Origin: an uncultured bacterium
GTDB taxonomy: Bacteria > Patescibacteriota > Minisyncoccia > Moranbacterales > GWC2-37-73
Reading direction: 5' to 3'
Length of the DNA stretch: 46,184 bases
Assembly (NCBI GenBank): GCA_903851135.1
Contig: CAINNK010000015.1
Span: forward strand, 1-46,184
Of the stretch, positions 15,559-23,534 are shown one piece after another. The notes under the pieces were generated by a model. It made no database searches. It was given only the letters and a program-made list of their open reading frames with translations, and had not been told where the DNA came from. Position numbers and translations under genes: made by a program. Position 1 is the stretch's first letter. Each line of letters begins with the position of its first letter.

Positions 15559-16095
15559 TTAGGGGAGAGAGTTTATTCTAATAAGTTCAAAGGAATTTTT
15601 TTCCGTTCTCCAAAGAGCAAAAGTTGGTGGATAGTATTGGTTGGCAACATTTCCAGGATTAAGCAAGGTGCAATTATTAATAACCTCAGTCCAGGGTTTG
15701 TGAGTGTGGCCATGAAAAACAAAATCAAATTCACCAGATTGGCAAAGCTGCTTGGCAACTTCGGGATAGTGCACGAAGGCAACCCTATTGAAGGCTAAAC
15801 CTTCGTCCGAAGGTTTAGCCTTCGGAATTTCAAGTTTTCCGTAGTCTGGAAATACTTGAATTTGTCCATATTGATTATTTTTAAAATTATAATCAGTGAT
15901 GTGTCCCTCATCCATGTTGCCGAAAGTGAAAAAGATTTCTCCAGAAAAGTTCTTGTTGATAAAATCCAAAGTTTCAAGGGTGGCTAAATCTCCACAGTGA
16001 ATCATTTTTTCAACTTTCTGCTTGCGACAATAATCCAAAACCTTTTTGAGGTTTGGGAGGTTATCGTGTGAGTCTGAGATGATGGCGATGAGCAT
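15559..16095 (-). CDS. YfcE-type metallophosphodiesterase
   Basis: IISDSHDNLPNL; IHCGDLATLETLDF; TFGNMD; FHGHTHKPW; LLNPGNV. Confidence 0.92.
   Translation of the reverse strand: MLIAIISDSHDNLPNLKKVLDYCRKQKVEKMIHCGDLATLETLDFINKNFSGEIFFTFGNMDEGHITDYNFKNNQYGQIQVFPDYGKLEIPKAKPSDEGLAFNRVAFVHYPEVAKQLCQSGEFDFVFHGHTHKPWTEVINNCTLLNPGNVANQYYPPTFALWRTEKNSFELIRINSLP
15790..15823. repeat. Perfect 16-bp-arm palindrome inside the phosphodiesterase CDS
   Basis: GAAGGCTAAACCTTCG-TC-CGAAGGTTTAGCCTTC; encodes PKAKPSDEGLAF region on minus. Confidence 0.92.
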
Positions 16096-16276
16096 AAAAT
16101 TAAAAGGGGTTAAGGGGATTAAAGGGAAAAATGGGAAAATAAAAAAATTGAGGGGTTGCTGGGAAACAAGGGGGAAATAAAAAAGGGGGGAAATAAAAAA
16201 GTTGAGAGGGGGTGGAAAAAAAGGGATTAATGGGGAGTTAATGGAAAAAATGGTGAGAAATGCGAAACTAGGATGA

Positions 16277-17302
16277 TTAGAGATTTTCGGATAGTTGAAT
16301 ATTACTAGGCAAACCTTTTGAAAGCTCTGGATATTCTATCGCCATTTGGGTGAATTTGTCCATTTTATAGATTTCATTAATCTCGACTTGGCGAATGATG
16401 TCCTTGAACAGATTTTTCATTTCGCGAATGAGGTCACGAATAACCTCGCGGCTCTCGACTTCAATATCAAGCATTAGCTCCCAATTTCCCATGCCTTTGA
16501 CGTAATTGATGATATTTGGGTGCAGACAGCAAAATTCATAGAGATCATCGATGCGTTGTTGATCAAATTGCACAATTTTGAAAGCCACGCGATAAAAGAG
16601 CAAGCCAGCTTTTTGATAGTCAATCGTGCAGGCAATTTTGGTGATGACACCATTTTTTTCAAGTTTATTATAATGTTTGTGAACCAGTCCAACTGAGACG
16701 CCGAGAATTTTGGCAATTTTGGTAAATTCCATGCGCCCATCTTCCAAAAGCAGGGAAATGATTTTGCGATCAGTTTCGGAAAGTTTGATTTTTTCGACAG
16801 TGCCGCCGGAAAGGGCGAATTTTTGAAATTCATTTTGTTTGCCGACTAAATAGGTTCGTGGGAACTTCACAAAGCCAAGACCCACGAAGATATCATTCTG
16901 AGTTATAAAAGCCCCATATTTGCTGAAAATATCTTGCAAAATTTCATTGTGGTGAAAAATATCTTTGGCAATGATGGCAATCATCACATCGGCGTAGCCG
17001 TCGGAACGCATGACAATTGGAATATATTTGTTTGCGTCAAAATACTTATACATCTCAACTTCTTTTTCCTTGCTTAGACCGGAAAATTTTAGCCAATAGG
17101 CCCAAAAGAAAGAATAGTCAGCTTTATCATAGTCAGTAAAGGCCCAAAAGTGCTTGATGATGCCTTTTTCTTGCAGCTGCTCGACGTGATATTTTACAAC
17201 CTGCGGAGTTGAATCGAGGACTCTGGCTATTTCCGAAAAGCTGACCCGGCCGTCCTTGTCGAGTTCAAAGAGGATTTTTTTGTCGAAGTCTGTGAGGTTC
17301 AT
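16277..17302 (-). CDS. Lrp/AsnC-family regulator with two tandem AsnC-type HTH units
   Basis: LTDFDKKILFELDKDGRVSFSEIARVLDSTPQVVKYHVEQL and LSETDRKIISLLLEDGRMEFTKIAKILGVSVGLVHKHYNKL. Confidence 0.87.
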   Translation of the reverse strand: MNLTDFDKKILFELDKDGRVSFSEIARVLDSTPQVVKYHVEQLQEKGIIKHFWAFTDYDKADYSFFWAYWLKFSGLSKEKEVEMYKYFDANKYIPIVMRSDGYADVMIAIIAKDIFHHNEILQDIFSKYGAFITQNDIFVGLGFVKFPRTYLVGKQNEFQKFALSGGTVEKIKLSETDRKIISLLLEDGRMEFTKIAKILGVSVGLVHKHYNKLEKNGVITKIACTIDYQKAGLLFYRVAFKIVQFDQQRIDDLYEFCCLHPNIINYVKGMGNWELMLDIEVESREVIRDLIREMKNLFKDIIRQVEINEIYKMDKFTQMAIEYPELSKGLPSNIQLSENL

Positions 17303-18089: not shown

Positions 18090-18317
18090 GTGTCTAAACT
18101 AGTTGAATTTAAGGATTTGGATTATAGCGATGAATTCATTGTTGATCCAGCCTCAATTCGGGATGAGGAAGACATAATTGTTTTCACAAAACGTCAGTTT
18201 GCCGGTGGTGGTGGAGATGTTGGGGTTTCCAATGACAGGGATGGCAAACACAAAATACTTTTTGAACCAACTCGGAAGGTATTAAAAGTTTTTGCGAGGA
18301 GGGCAGACAAGGTTTGA
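18090..18317 (+). CDS. Hypothetical protein (75 aa)
   Basis: Intact ORF; start may be GTG slightly upstream. Confidence 0.5.
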   Translation: MSKLVEFKDLDYSDEFIVDPASIRDEEDIIVFTKRQFAGGGGDVGVSNDRDGKHKILFEPTRKVLKVFARRADKV

Positions 18318-18419
18318 ATAGTTTAGGGTGTAGTTAAATTTAACCGCACCCTATTCAAATAAAAATTATTTTTTTGTGATATAATTAAAGCATAAATATT
18401 TTTTATACATTAAAATTTT

Positions 18420-21400
18420 ATGTGTGGAATAATTGGAATTTTCGGTGAGAATAATCCAAAGGAAAGGGCGCATCAATCTTTGGAAAAAATCGTGCACAGA
18501 GGGAGCAACACTTTTGAATTGGCATATTTTCCTAATGCGGTTTTGGGAGCCAATCGTTTGCCAATAGTTGATCGTGAGCATGCCGTGCAGCCACAGTCTA
18601 ATGAAAATGGCACAATTTTTGCAACTCAAAATGGCGAAATTTTTAATTATAAAAAACTCAAGGAAGAATTGATTGACAAGGGTCATCAATTCAAAACAGA
18701 CTCTGACACGGAAGTGCTGGTTCATTTGTATGAAGAATACGGAACTGAAATGGTTTATAAGTTGGACACGGAAATGTTTGCCTTTATTGTTTTTGATCGA
18801 AATGATAATTCGGTTTTTGTGGCGCGCGATCCGCTTGGAGTAAAGCCACTTTACTATGCGGAAGACAAGAGTGGACAATTTTATTTTGCTTCTGAACTTA
18901 AGCAGCTTTCCTTTTTTGAGGATATTGAGGAAATTTACACTTTTCCAGCGGGAACATATTTTTTCAACGGAGAATTTAAAAAGTATTTTACGCTGCAAAT
19001 TACAAATGAACTTAATAATGAGAAAGAAATTATTGATTTATTTGAGAAAAAAATTGTCGAAGCAGTTTCAAAGAGGGTTCAAACTGATTTGCCAATAGGG
19101 GTTTTTTTGAGCGGCGGAGTGGACAGCAGTTTGATTATGGAAATTGCAACCAGGATTCATCCGGATGTGACTGCTATCATTTTGGGATATCCAGGATCTT
19201 CTGATTATGAGTATGCTTTGCGTTTGTGCCAGGACAGGAAATATAAGCATCACATTGTGCGCCCGGATGTTGATTTTGAAAAAGAATTAGATGGTTTGAT
19301 TTATCATCTGGAAACGTACGAGCCGCTTATCATTAGACAATCGTTCTCACTTGATATTTGTGCACGGGAGGCCAATCGCCTTGGGCTCAAGGTTGTCTTG
19401 GTTGGAGAAGGTGCGGATGAACTTTTTGGCGGATATAATGAATTTTCAAATCTGCCAGCTGAGAAAGTGAATCAAGGCTGCTTGATGCTGACTGAGTCCT
19501 TGAGCGCTGGACATTTGCAGCGAGTCGACAGAATGAGCATGAAGCACACGGTGGAAATTCGCGCACCATTTTTTGATAAAGAAGTTGTTGAGGTCGCCTT
19601 GAAAATCAGTGGAGAGCTTAAGATTAAAAAAGAAAATCATCAGGTTACAACGAAATATATTCTGCGCAAGACGGCGGCAAATTTTCTGCCAGACTATATC
19701 GCTTGGCGGTATAAGGTGCCATTTAGTAATGGAGCAGGAATGAACGTGGGGAATAATTTCAAATCCCAGGATGGAGATGTGGCAAAAATAATTTTGGAAA
19801 AAGAAGAAGCGCAACTGGCGCAAGCTATGCTAGACAAATATACAGTTAGCACTAAAGAAGGAAAATATTATTTGAAAAAGTTTGACGAATTTGGATTCAC
19901 GAAATTGCTTGGCAGCGAAAAAAGGTTGGTTGTGAAAGACAATTTAAATGACTTGCACAGTTCACAAAAACAGCGCTTGCTTGTGGGTGAGTTTGATCGC
20001 TTAGCGCTGTATTTTCCAGTATATTTTGCGGCTCAAAAAGGAATTTTTGTTCTGCACGATTTAGACATTGATTTTATTGCAACTGGTGGTGACGATAAAA
20101 CATATGGCTCATTGGTTAATAATTCGGCTCATATTGGACTTTCAGACCCGATGTTCGCGATGTTTGAAAATAAAGAAGGAGTCAAAGGAGAAATTGTCGG
20201 CGAGCTTGTGGAAAATATTCCAGGAGTTGCCATCACACTTAATCCTAATGTTAAAATTAAAAAAATAGAAGACTTCAAAAAATATAAAGTCGGAACTTTC
20301 GAAGCATTCAGTACGATGAATGGAATTGTGAAATATCTTTTGCCTAAAGAAACATCGATTTCTGATTTTGAACACAAAACACTTTTGGAGAAACTGGCCA
20401 GCAGGGAAATTGATGTTGCAGTGGTGCTTCCAGAGCAGGCGTATGAACTGGAGTTGATTGGCGGACGAATTGTCTTTGATTTTAGTTTGCAGTTTCAGAA
20501 ATTTTTGTTTAGTGGATTTACAATTTCTAATATTTTGGAAGAAAAATATCGAGAGCATCTGAAATCTTTCGTGGTCGCTGTGCGCGAGGCAGTGCAATAT
20601 ATCAGGAAAAATAAAAAAGAAGCGCTGGCTGAATTTGCAAGAACCTTTCCAGAACTAAAAGCATCTGAAAAAATATTTGACTGTTATTTGAATCTTTGGT
20701 CAACGACGCTGAAAGTTGAAAAAGAAGATTATAAAAATGCCTGCGATGTTTGGAAAGAAAATTATCCTCAGCTTTTGAAAAAATATGTTCCATATTTCAG
20801 AAAAGTGTCCATCGTCGATCCTGTGATTGAAAAAATAAATTCACGGGAATATCGCAGGGACTTCCCGTTTTTAGAAGATGTACTTGAAAAAAATATCATC
20901 AAATCTCTAAATAATAAAACGCCACTTGAATTTGTTGGTTTTTGGGGAGCTGGAGAAAAGGAGGCTATTGATAATCACGATAAAAATGCTCTAAGATATT
21001 TTAAAAGTTACATTGAAAATATCAAAAGTGTGTTTGCTCCAGAAATTAAAATTACTTGGATTCTTTCTGATGCACATGCAAAAAATAATGGATATGCAGA
21101 AGAAAAATATACGAAATATTTAGAGCAAATAAAAGTTGCATTAGAAGAAGCTGGATTTCAAGTGATTTATCTCAGTCAATTGTGGGAAAAGTGGAATCTT
21201 AAGGAGCAAGATATTCAAGAGAGCTTGGAGAAACAGGAGAAAAATTGGTGGAGTAAGGTTGCTATTGCAGCTCAATTGGAAAAGCAGGCACAAAAAAGAT
21301 TCAAAATGGATGATTTTGTTTTTGGAGCGCAGAAATATTATATAATGCGAAAATTGGAAAAGCCTCATTTAGAGAAAGAGTTTAAAGATTGTGTGTTTTT

Positions 21401-21506
21401 CAGTTTTAATGATGGTCAAACGCAATCACTGCTACCAAAATTGCCTTCGATATATCTATATAGTGAAAATCGAGGAATAAGCGATGTGCCTTGGTTTAAT
21501 AATTAA
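18420..21506 (+). CDS. Asparagine synthase (class II glutamine amidotransferase + synthase) fused to NMT1/THI5-like substrate-binding fold and uncharacterised C-terminal domain
   Basis: MCGIIGIFGE (Cys2), GVFLSGGVDSSLIMEIA, GEGADELFGGYNEF; ~19980-20850 ABC-SBP-like (FDRLALYFPVYFAAQKGIFVLHDLDIDFIATGGDDKTYGSLVNNSAHIGLSD); ~20930-21506 unassigned. Confidence 0.88.
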   Translation: MCGIIGIFGENNPKERAHQSLEKIVHRGSNTFELAYFPNAVLGANRLPIVDREHAVQPQSNENGTIFATQNGEIFNYKKLKEELIDKGHQFKTDSDTEVLVHLYEEYGTEMVYKLDTEMFAFIVFDRNDNSVFVARDPLGVKPLYYAEDKSGQFYFASELKQLSFFEDIEEIYTFPAGTYFFNGEFKKYFTLQITNELNNEKEIIDLFEKKIVEAVSKRVQTDLPIGVFLSGGVDSSLIMEIATRIHPDVTAIILGYPGSSDYEYALRLCQDRKYKHHIVRPDVDFEKELDGLIYHLETYEPLIIRQSFSLDICAREANRLGLKVVLVGEGADELFGGYNEFSNLPAEKVNQGCLMLTESLSAGHLQRVDRMSMKHTVEIRAPFFDKEVVEVALKISGELKIKKENHQVTTKYILRKTAANFLPDYIAWRYKVPFSNGAGMNVGNNFKSQDGDVAKIILEKEEAQLAQAMLDKYTVSTKEGKYYLKKFDEFGFTKLLGSEKRLVVKDNLNDLHSSQKQRLLVGEFDRLALYFPVYFAAQKGIFVLHDLDIDFIATGGDDKTYGSLVNNSAHIGLSDPMFAMFENKEGVKGEIVGELVENIPGVAITLNPNVKIKKIEDFKKYKVGTFEAFSTMNGIVKYLLPKETSISDFEHKTLLEKLASREIDVAVVLPEQAYELELIGGRIVFDFSLQFQKFLFSGFTISNILEEKYREHLKSFVVAVREAVQYIRKNKKEALAEFARTFPELKASEKIFDCYLNLWSTTLKVEKEDYKNACDVWKENYPQLLKKYVPYFRKVSIVDPVIEKINSREYRRDFPFLEDVLEKNIIKSLNNKTPLEFVGFWGAGEKEAIDNHDKNALRYFKSYIENIKSVFAPEIKITWILSDAHAKNNGYAEEKYTKYLEQIKVALEEAGFQVIYLSQLWEKWNLKEQDIQESLEKQEKNWWSKVAIAAQLEKQAQKRFKMDDFVFGAQKYYIMRKLEKPHLEKEFKDCVFFSFNDGQTQSLLPKLPSIYLYSENRGISDVPWFNN

Positions 21507-21521
21507 TTTAAAAATAAACGT

Positions 21522-23372
21522 ATGTTTAAGGAAAACAATTTTTTTCCCAATCAAGAAAGAAACCCAGAAGAGAAAAAGAGGGTTACGTTGATGACTGGCA
21601 CTCAAATGGAAAGGTCATTGCGTCACTTGGCAGGACTGATTGAAAAATATCAAAAAGACAATTATGAGGTTGATATCTTGAATCTGGGAACAATGGCCGG
21701 GGTGTATGAGCAAAAAGATGGTGGTTATCCAGAAGAACTTGAAAAAGAAATTATGGCCTTTCTTTCAGAAAAAAAACCTGAAATGATTGGCGTTTCGATG
21801 ATTGATTTTGGAGTTGATCGGATTTCTGATCTGATTAAAAAAATTTCACAGAATGAGGAAATACAAGAAAATAAAACAAAAATAATTGCTGGTGGGCCCT
21901 ATGCAATTGAGCATTCTGAAAGGTGTCTAAATATTGAAGGAATTGATGCTGTTTGCTATACGACTGGTTGGCACTTTGCTGATATTGTGGAGGCTTGCTC
22001 AAACGATAGACTGGAAAAAATTCCTGGTTTAATGATTAAAACTGGCATAAACGAAAAGGGTGAGGCAGAATATATCAAGACTCAATTGCCAGACTTAAGA
22101 ATTAATATATCTGAGCAGCCGCTGCCAGACGAATCACTGGAAAATACTTATAGAATTTACGAGGGTCATTTAGTCAATGCTTCTGAGTCAGGTGGAGCAA
22201 TTCCAGTTGAGCATCATCAATTGCCACATAAACACACGGGGGTGCTTGTTACGAGTGAAGGTTGTCGTAATAATTGTAAATTTTGTTCAATTCCTACTCA
22301 GAGGAAAACCCTTGAAGAACAATTTGGACACAAGCTAGAGAGAGTAAAATTTCTTCAACCCGAAAAAGCAATTAAGCTTATACAAAATTATCTTAAAGAA
22401 AATCCAAATACCCGGTATATTTTGTTTAATGATAATGATTTTACCGCAAGATCCGTAGAAGGAACTAGGGAGTTTGCGAAATTATATAAGGAACAAATAA
22501 AGCTTCCTTTTTATTGCCAGTGTTCACCAAACACAGCGATTCTTGAGGATAAAATAGATTTACTAAGAGAGGCTGGGATGGATACTTTTGATACTGGTGT
22601 TCAAGGAAGTGAGCAATCTAACAAGTCAGCCAAGTACGACAGAAGCTGTACAGATGAACAGGTTTTGACTGTAGCTGAAAAGCTGTCACCATATTTGGAA
22701 AAAAGAAATGAAAAAGGTGAGGTCATGGAGGAAGGATTGAAGGCAGCTTTCGATTTCATCAATGGGAATGAGGTTCACACCAAGGAAGACATGCTTTCAA
22801 CGATGGACTTTGTGAAAAAAATTACCAGCGCAATAGAAAGTAATACCGCAGGTCAAGGAAGTTGGAATTTGGCAGTTCATAATTTAACGCTTGATAAGGA
22901 TCGAGAATTAGCAGTTGAGTATCAAAAGAAAAAAATTGCAGAAGGCATTTCTGTGGGAGAAGTGGATGATTCTGATTATCACAATGCGACTGTAGAGGCT
23001 TTTTATAAATTAAATGAACCATATCTCAATATAATGTTGGAGTGGATGGGCGGATTGCATGATCAGGTTCATTTGGGCCGATTGCCAAGGCAATCTGAAG
23101 CTTTTGCAAAACTGATTGAAGAAGTTTTAGCTAAGGATGAAAAGTTAAAGGAGCTGATAGTATTAAAAAAAGGATCAAAACCAGAAACAATCGACTTGCT
23201 GACAGATGAAGAGGTGTATGCATATCTTGGAGACAAGGAAAATCCTAGAGCAAAAGAAGTTCTGAAATTGATAAGTGAAAAAATACCAGAAATTAATTAT
23301 TCTTATCATCGACCAGATAGGTATGACTTTGATTATGATTGGGCCGAAAAGCAGATAGCAGAAAAAAAATAG
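21522..23372 (+). CDS. Radical SAM protein, B12-binding-like N-terminus
   Basis: TSEGCRNNCKFCSIPTQRK (CX3CX2C); N-terminal region arranged like B12-radical-SAM proteins. Confidence 0.85.
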   Translation: MFKENNFFPNQERNPEEKKRVTLMTGTQMERSLRHLAGLIEKYQKDNYEVDILNLGTMAGVYEQKDGGYPEELEKEIMAFLSEKKPEMIGVSMIDFGVDRISDLIKKISQNEEIQENKTKIIAGGPYAIEHSERCLNIEGIDAVCYTTGWHFADIVEACSNDRLEKIPGLMIKTGINEKGEAEYIKTQLPDLRINISEQPLPDESLENTYRIYEGHLVNASESGGAIPVEHHQLPHKHTGVLVTSEGCRNNCKFCSIPTQRKTLEEQFGHKLERVKFLQPEKAIKLIQNYLKENPNTRYILFNDNDFTARSVEGTREFAKLYKEQIKLPFYCQCSPNTAILEDKIDLLREAGMDTFDTGVQGSEQSNKSAKYDRSCTDEQVLTVAEKLSPYLEKRNEKGEVMEEGLKAAFDFINGNEVHTKEDMLSTMDFVKKITSAIESNTAGQGSWNLAVHNLTLDKDRELAVEYQKKKIAEGISVGEVDDSDYHNATVEAFYKLNEPYLNIMLEWMGGLHDQVHLGRLPRQSEAFAKLIEEVLAKDEKLKELIVLKKGSKPETIDLLTDEEVYAYLGDKENPRAKEVLKLISEKIPEINYSYHRPDRYDFDYDWAEKQIAEKK

Positions 23373-23383
23373 TTAAGAAAAAT

Positions 23384-23417
23384 AAAAAGCGAAGTCTGAA
23401 AATGACTTCGCTTTTTT
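23384..23417 (+). terminator. Terminator of the two-gene locus
   Basis: AAAAAGCGAAGTC-tgaaaat-GACTTCGCTTTTTT. Confidence 0.82.
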
Positions 23418-23534
23418 AAATGAGAAAATGGGGTTAATGGATTTAAGGAGGTTAAGGGGGAAATAAAAAAAGTTGAACGGTTAAAGGGCAATGGTGGATT
23501 AAAAGGTTGAGAGTAAAATGGGAGATTGGGGTGG

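Follow-up and report, generated by a model that had tools for sequence, protein, structure and literature searches.

The window analyzed here is a stretch of 46,184 nucleotides, the contig CAINNK010000015.1 of assembly GCA_903851135.1, from an uncultured bacterium of the order Moranbacterales (Patescibacteriota). Its plus strand carries two closely spaced genes: an uninterrupted open reading frame (ORF) of 1028 amino acids at positions 18420-21506 and, after a gap of 15 nucleotides, a radical SAM ORF of 616 amino acids at 21522-23372. Both ORFs lie at the coordinates and on the strand given by the original prediction, which a model had made from the sequence alone and which proposed a biosynthetic locus. 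The longer ORF encodes a fusion of a glutaminase domain, an AsnB-type synthetase domain, a substrate-binding protein (SBP) fold, and a divergent DIT1/PvcA-fold domain. In our searches of the literature, no publication on an AsnB-SBP-PvcA fusion of this kind came up.

The boundaries of this gene pair are marked by predicted hairpins. The single terminator that had been noted after both genes was found as a bidirectional terminator-like hairpin of 13 pairs, with T runs on both strands, located 3' of the radical SAM gene (23384-23416). A second hairpin, followed by T-rich DNA (18313-18364, plus strand), lies between a 75-amino-acid ORF (18090-18317, plus strand) and the fusion and likely terminates the upstream unit. 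Because this hairpin separates the fusion from the small ORF, the fusion and radical SAM genes probably form their own two-gene unit.

The N-terminal half of the fusion is organized like an asparagine synthetase, with Pfam matches to GATase_7/GATase_6 followed by Asn_synthase. The class II glutaminase (GATase_7) domain occupies residues 1-185 (18420-18974, plus strand) and opens with MCGI, in which Cys2 is the nucleophile. Comparison with a published residue list for human ASNS, whose glutaminase pocket comprises Arg48, Val52, Asn74, Gly75, Glu76, and Asp96 (PMC6748925), revealed that all of the listed residues are retained, as Arg46, Val50, Asn71, Gly72, Glu73, and Asp96. The synthetase domain that follows (residues ~186-510; 18975-19949, plus strand) is of the short form seen in Escherichia coli AsnB. 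It scores 343.7 bits against the NCBIfam model asn_synth_AEB (cut-off 267.1), and its best PDB match is 1ct9 in sequence (E 4e-63) as well as in fold. The SGGVDSS pyrophosphate loop and the GEGADELFGGY motif are present as well, and the three AsnB-type motifs of the original prediction were thereby all recovered. Likewise, the catalytic Lys (human Lys-466) is kept as K432 within AWRYK, and D333 corresponds to human Asp-367, which has been modelled as binding the substrate alpha-amino group (PMC6748925).

Other parts of the synthetase site have changed. The TTIRAS motif of AsnB reads LIIRQS in the window fusion, and TTIR is altered in 7 of 7 members of the family, which carry L, N, or Q at the position of human Thr-336 within a pattern resembling (L/N/Q)(I/V/P)IRQS. 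The position of human Ser-362, a ribose contact, is V or L in members. Since TTIR is altered in every member, and the human substitution T336I almost abolishes activity (PMC6748925), plain asparagine is probably not the product. Judged from these residues, the AsnB part is probably amide-forming and would still take an amino-acid-like acid, though probably not aspartate.

Between the synthetase and C-terminal domains lies an NMT1/THI5-like SBP fold (residues ~516-795; 19965-20804, plus strand). Pfam NMT1 (PF09084) matches residues 533-735 (E 1e-9, 38.9 bits; cut-off 20.5), in agreement with the middle region as first described, and the lack of a signal peptide bears out the proposal that this part is cytosolic. 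The likeliest role of this domain is to bind a small substrate or effector. Such binding, which is typical of SBP folds, would also suit an ordinary asparagine synthetase in which amide synthesis is tuned by metabolites bound to the SBP and PvcA-fold parts. This alternative draws further support from the closeness of the core to E. coli AsnB, including its score above the asn_synth_AEB cut-off, and from the preservation of D333 and K432. However, it is at odds with the altered TTIR motif and the replaced Ser-362 equivalent, with the second AsnB-family gene in the host (C14), and with the occurrence of PvcA-fold and SBP-PvcA proteins without AsnB. It also leaves the adjacent radical SAM gene unexplained, and we consider it unlikely.

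The C-terminal region had been proposed to form a separate domain of about 190 amino acids and was left unassigned. A separate domain is indeed present, although its size is nearer 230 amino acids (residues ~799-1028; 20814-21503, plus strand). It is a divergent DIT1/PvcA-fold domain with the motifs FWGxxxK, SDxHxxxN, YxxxRxxE, and PWF, and its conserved residues include Lys847, Asp884, His886, and Arg977. The sequence scores are weak but backed by structure, and the link to PvcA was built from Pfam, intermediate sequences from candidate phyla radiation (CPR) bacteria, and structure. As an isolated domain, the window sequence matches Pfam DIT1_PvcA (PF05141) with an E value of 2.6e-5 and 24.3 bits, just under the cut-off of 26.4. 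The same model is matched by 4 of 9 family members (best E 6.9e-8), and a stand-alone homologue in genome G105 reaches 32.7 bits. Alignment by hhalign with CPR PvcA-like families gave probabilities of 93% and 72%, and one of those families matches PvcA 3e59 at 7e-23. Searching PDB sequences directly with the profile of the C-terminal domain gave no useful match. An AlphaFold model of the domain, computed from nine family members, has a predicted local distance difference test (pLDDT) value of 88 and a predicted template modelling (pTM) score of 0.87, and a Foldseek search of the PDB with this model placed PvcA and PIsnA at the top (E 3e-8, TM ~0.6). We regard the fold assignment, as drawn from profiles and a predicted structure, as solid. 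The model of the full-length fusion has a low pTM of 0.47 and does not fix how the domains are arranged.

The next Foldseek matches are tyrosyl-tRNA synthetases (E 6e-6), as might be expected if the C-terminal domain had the class Ic aminoacyl-tRNA-synthetase/cyclodipeptide-synthase (CDPS) fold and worked as a tRNA-dependent enzyme on aminoacyl-tRNA. Yet PvcA ranks first, and no CDPS or synthetase family is matched in Pfam. Inspection by eye against the CDPS motifs places a Trp at the CDPS Ser position and an Arg at the position of the catalytic Glu. This explanation strikes us as extremely doubtful.

Another question is whether the domain makes isocyanides. PvcA acts on an amino-acid amine with ribulose-5-phosphate, whereas its family member in yeast, Dit1, seems instead to catalyze N-formylation of tyrosine (PMC7345447). 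These differing chemistries indicate that the DIT1/PvcA family is chemically flexible. A true isocyanide pathway would have the PvcA-fold domain make an isonitrile from these two substrates while AsnB amidates the carboxylate. The DIT1_PvcA homology and fold, with PvcA and PIsnA as top PDB matches, are consistent with this idea, and of the isocyanide-synthase signatures the Lys of FPxKxxNPxK, the SD of SDG (with its Asp), and the PW of PWHG remain. Nevertheless, FPxKxxNPxK (except for the Lys), PDxAE, RLSxHP, and PWHG as such are lost. With most signature motifs gone, the domain does not qualify as an isocyanide synthase proper. Moreover, the NCBIfam PvcA model does not match the fusion, no PvcB-like oxygenase is encoded nearby, and the host genome has no match to Rpe or RpiB (RpiA was not searched for). 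Standard isonitrile synthesis from ribulose-5-phosphate is disfavoured by the lost motifs and the missing Rpe and RpiB matches, and we judge the isocyanide pathway to be quite improbable.

Among CPR bacteria, the DIT1/PvcA fold extends far beyond the isocyanide synthases known so far. One protein family that recurs in CPR genomes (320-350 amino acids; L058, L061, L065, L066, L069, L070) has weak DIT1_PvcA similarity and the pattern GGYK ... DWAE ... SDxxIxxRMNN. Closer CPR homologues of PvcA occur at four other loci (L053-L056). Two of these have a fused N-terminal MerR/excisionase-like helix-turn-helix domain (593 amino acids), and two have ROK-type sugar kinases as neighbors, to which HAD phosphatases are added in one case (kinases and phosphatases as judged by eye).

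The partner protein (21522-23372, plus strand) contains a Pfam Radical_SAM domain (E 1e-14, 55 bits) in which C248, C252, and C255 form the CX3CX2C motif that had been noticed at the outset. Its N-terminus (residues ~46-149) resembles a B12-binding domain, with a Pfam match (E 1.2e-5, 25.5 bits) under the cut-off of 32.1. Because the protein scores far under every NCBIfam equivalog cut-off, no known reaction can be assigned to it.

Loci for ribosomally synthesized and post-translationally modified peptides (RiPPs) often hold AsnB-type cyclases and radical SAM maturases. The AsnB and radical SAM proteins might likewise modify a small precursor peptide, for which the upstream 75-amino-acid ORF would be a candidate. 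However, the fusion loci have no conserved small ORF in common. Among them, only that of G108 has a homologue of the 75-amino-acid ORF, immediately 5' of the fusion, and we treat this ORF as context rather than core. In addition, the radical SAM protein is of a B12-binding-like type and has no recognised peptide-maturase match, and the AsnB domain is nearest to the AsnB that acts on free amino acids, not to lasso cyclases. RiPP-like maturation thus appears very unlikely. Of the modified metabolite or peptide envisaged in the original prediction, the biosynthetic role fits the domains, and the peptide is unsupported.

The fusion is not peculiar to this assembly. Four more genomes of the order carry the tri-domain protein at 82% (G117), 73% (G108), 62% (G033), and 44% (G049) identity, and comparison with the nearest homologue, in G117, reveals purifying selection on all four domains (dN/dS 0.02-0.12). 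These equal full-length fusions and the selection on every domain rule out misassembly, a frame artefact, or chance, and the ORF was not merged from separate genes. Related proteins have other arrangements. An Uhrbacteria genome (L040) encodes a 755-amino-acid AsnB-PvcA protein without the SBP domain, G105 has AsnB and PvcA as separate genes that overlap by 44 nucleotides, a Patescibacteria genome (L043) encodes an SBP-PvcA protein of 505 amino acids and no AsnB of the fusion type anywhere, and a WWE3 genome (L044) has PvcA alone. Because AsnB and PvcA-fold domains are repeatedly united by fusion or overlapping genes, they probably serve one pathway. The three ways in which these two are joined, with SBP-PvcA as a fourth pairing, suggest that all three domains work together. 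With matches in only 4 of 381 sampled genomes of the phylum, the family is rare and scattered. These searches covered sampled genomes, and the genome collection was scanned with one short pattern, so distant members will be missed.

Two neighborhoods of relatives may be recorded here. In the WWE3 genome, the lone PvcA-fold gene is followed after ~410 nucleotides by a putative creatininase-family hydrolase gene (L044 1249-3198; by eye). In G045, a gene of the same AsnB subfamily (51%) occurs without SBP or PvcA and with a broken reading frame (L026 8485-9774), within a cluster of genes for PEP-utiliser-domain proteins plus a histidine-phosphatase-like gene.

The radical SAM gene was found in 4 of 132 genomes of the order (the window genome, G033, G049, and G108). 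All four carry the fusion, and in each the gene lies directly 3' of it, as would be expected from the proposed co-occurrence. For G108, the junction is represented by two contigs that share an identical overlap spanning the fusion-radical SAM boundary. The chance that all four radical SAM genomes would fall among the five fusion genomes is ~4e-7 (5/C(132,4)) when shared ancestry is ignored. G117 was unscored for the gene, as the 9 kb directly downstream of its fusion are N (L034 1-9001).

From the observed architecture and homology, the modular recurrence of the parts, the selection on them, and the operon-like co-occurrence of the two genes, we lean toward a two-gene biosynthetic cassette whose product is an amidated, further modified amino-acid-type metabolite. 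The individual steps and their order are predicted from sequence. The glutaminase domain, with its intact residues, would release ammonia from glutamine, and the AsnB domain would adenylate a carboxylate and form its amide, the acid probably being amino-acid-like but not aspartate. The PvcA-fold domain may then act at the amino group of the same or a linked substrate in a C1-type or condensation step, as its homology suggests, while the SBP-fold domain would hold a small-molecule substrate or effector. Finally, the radical SAM protein, with its B12-binding-like N-terminus, would tailor the product.

Several observations weigh against this cassette. Four radical SAM genomes are a small sample, and the G033 partner is a paralogue with only 28% identity, so what is conserved is a kind of partner rather than a single orthologue. 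The pairing is also not universal, as the genomes with the Uhrbacteria AsnB-PvcA protein and the G105 split pair gave no radical SAM match. Likewise, the SBP-PvcA protein in a genome without AsnB of the fusion type implies that the reaction does not in every case involve AsnB, and the loci share no conserved gene for a transporter or for further tailoring.

We know of no instance in which the AsnB and PvcA families work together. It is possible, and we hold this more tentatively than the cassette itself, that the pair represents a new CPR enzyme family, in which AsnB-type amide formation and a repurposed isocyanide-synthase fold share one polypeptide, served by a dedicated B12-type radical SAM protein, and yield a new class of metabolite for episymbiotic cells. 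If the cassette is real, it would be a compact and conserved cluster that bacteria with reduced genomes have apparently exchanged across family borders, whereas in streamlined genomes biosynthetic clusters are reported to be uncommon (PMC12455944). The natural variants (AsnB-PvcA, SBP-PvcA, split genes, and PvcA alone) allow the role of each domain to be probed singly.

The distribution of the fusion suggests transfer between families, because sequence identities misfit simple vertical descent. None of five same-genus genomes has the fusion, and the two that were tested share IF-2 at 96%. Between the window and G117, from another family, the fusion is 82% identical and IF-2 is 64% identical; with G033 the order is reversed (fusion 62%, IF-2 65%). 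Synonymous sites are near saturation, so the transfers were not recent. Carriers are scattered over families, as for an accessory, transferable trait, and relatives without the fusion have other genes at the same site, between Lrp/response-regulator genes and nfo.

A tandem Lrp/AsnC-type regulator gene (16277-17302, minus strand) belongs to this context. It adjoins PvcA-type cargo in 3 of 3 order genomes that have both, and it also occurs without cargo. It is present in 19 of 132 genomes, most of which lack the fusion; this weakens its candidacy as a dedicated partner, and it rather marks a variable site. At this site (window 16277-17302; L036, L035, L072-L079), the neighbors of the regulator are the AsnB/PvcA genes in three genomes and PEP-synthase-like/histidine-phosphatase clusters in two others. 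A paralogous Lrp gene in G004 stands divergent to the genes of an ordinary NMT1-type ABC transporter (SBP, ATPase, and permease; L080 1218-4938); the SBP of this transporter and the fused SBP domain have 25% identity. The window also has G-rich, C-free spacers at 16094-16262 and 23412-23477 (3 found versus 0.08 expected in shuffles). Two 46-nucleotide pieces of these spacers show 76% similarity in direct orientation, one on either side of the Lrp-to-radical SAM segment, and one such spacer also lies between YfcE and Lrp in a same-genus genome that lacks the fusion.

Other origins for the locus were considered and set aside. The fusion/radical SAM DNA has no match in plasmids, where a protein search with the C-terminal domain gave noise only, and a search of viral contigs found no relative. 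PADLOC returned no defence-system match, and Rfam identified only tRNAs in the window. Hairpins 5' of the fusions are mutually unrelated and resemble terminators of the preceding genes, which argues against a conserved RNA structure.

Comparison with known systems places each part of the pair near a familiar protein. AsnB and ASNS (PDB 1ct9, 6gq3) share with the fusion the two-domain layout, the glutaminase residues, the SGGxDSS loop, and the short-form synthetase domain, and the AsnB part is ~30% identical to E. coli AsnB. The fusion differs in its altered TTIRAS, the lost ribose-contact Ser, and its joined SBP and PvcA-fold domains. NMT1/THI5-like SBPs (ThiY and SsuA type; yeast THI5) match across the whole ~200-amino-acid fold and share the conserved GGDD and SDP loops, but the fused domain is cytosolic, sits inside an enzyme fusion without ABC (ATP-binding cassette) partners, and does not have the CCCFC motif of yeast THI5. 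B12-binding-domain radical SAM proteins (TIGR04013, HpnJ, rSAM_ladder_B12) have a Rossmann B12-type N-terminus, which that of the partner resembles, followed by a CX3CX2C core as in the partner, whereas the partner is far below every equivalog cut-off and, within the order, is confined to fusion genomes. PvcA/IsnA proteins (PF05141; PDB 3e59, 9dh4, 9dhm) agree with the C-terminal domain in fold, core motif order, conserved Lys and Asp, and C-terminal PW. Unlike them, the domain is ~230 rather than ~310 amino acids long (as in PvcA), has 14-16% identity, and is fused to AsnB. The architecture is new, and the folds are known.

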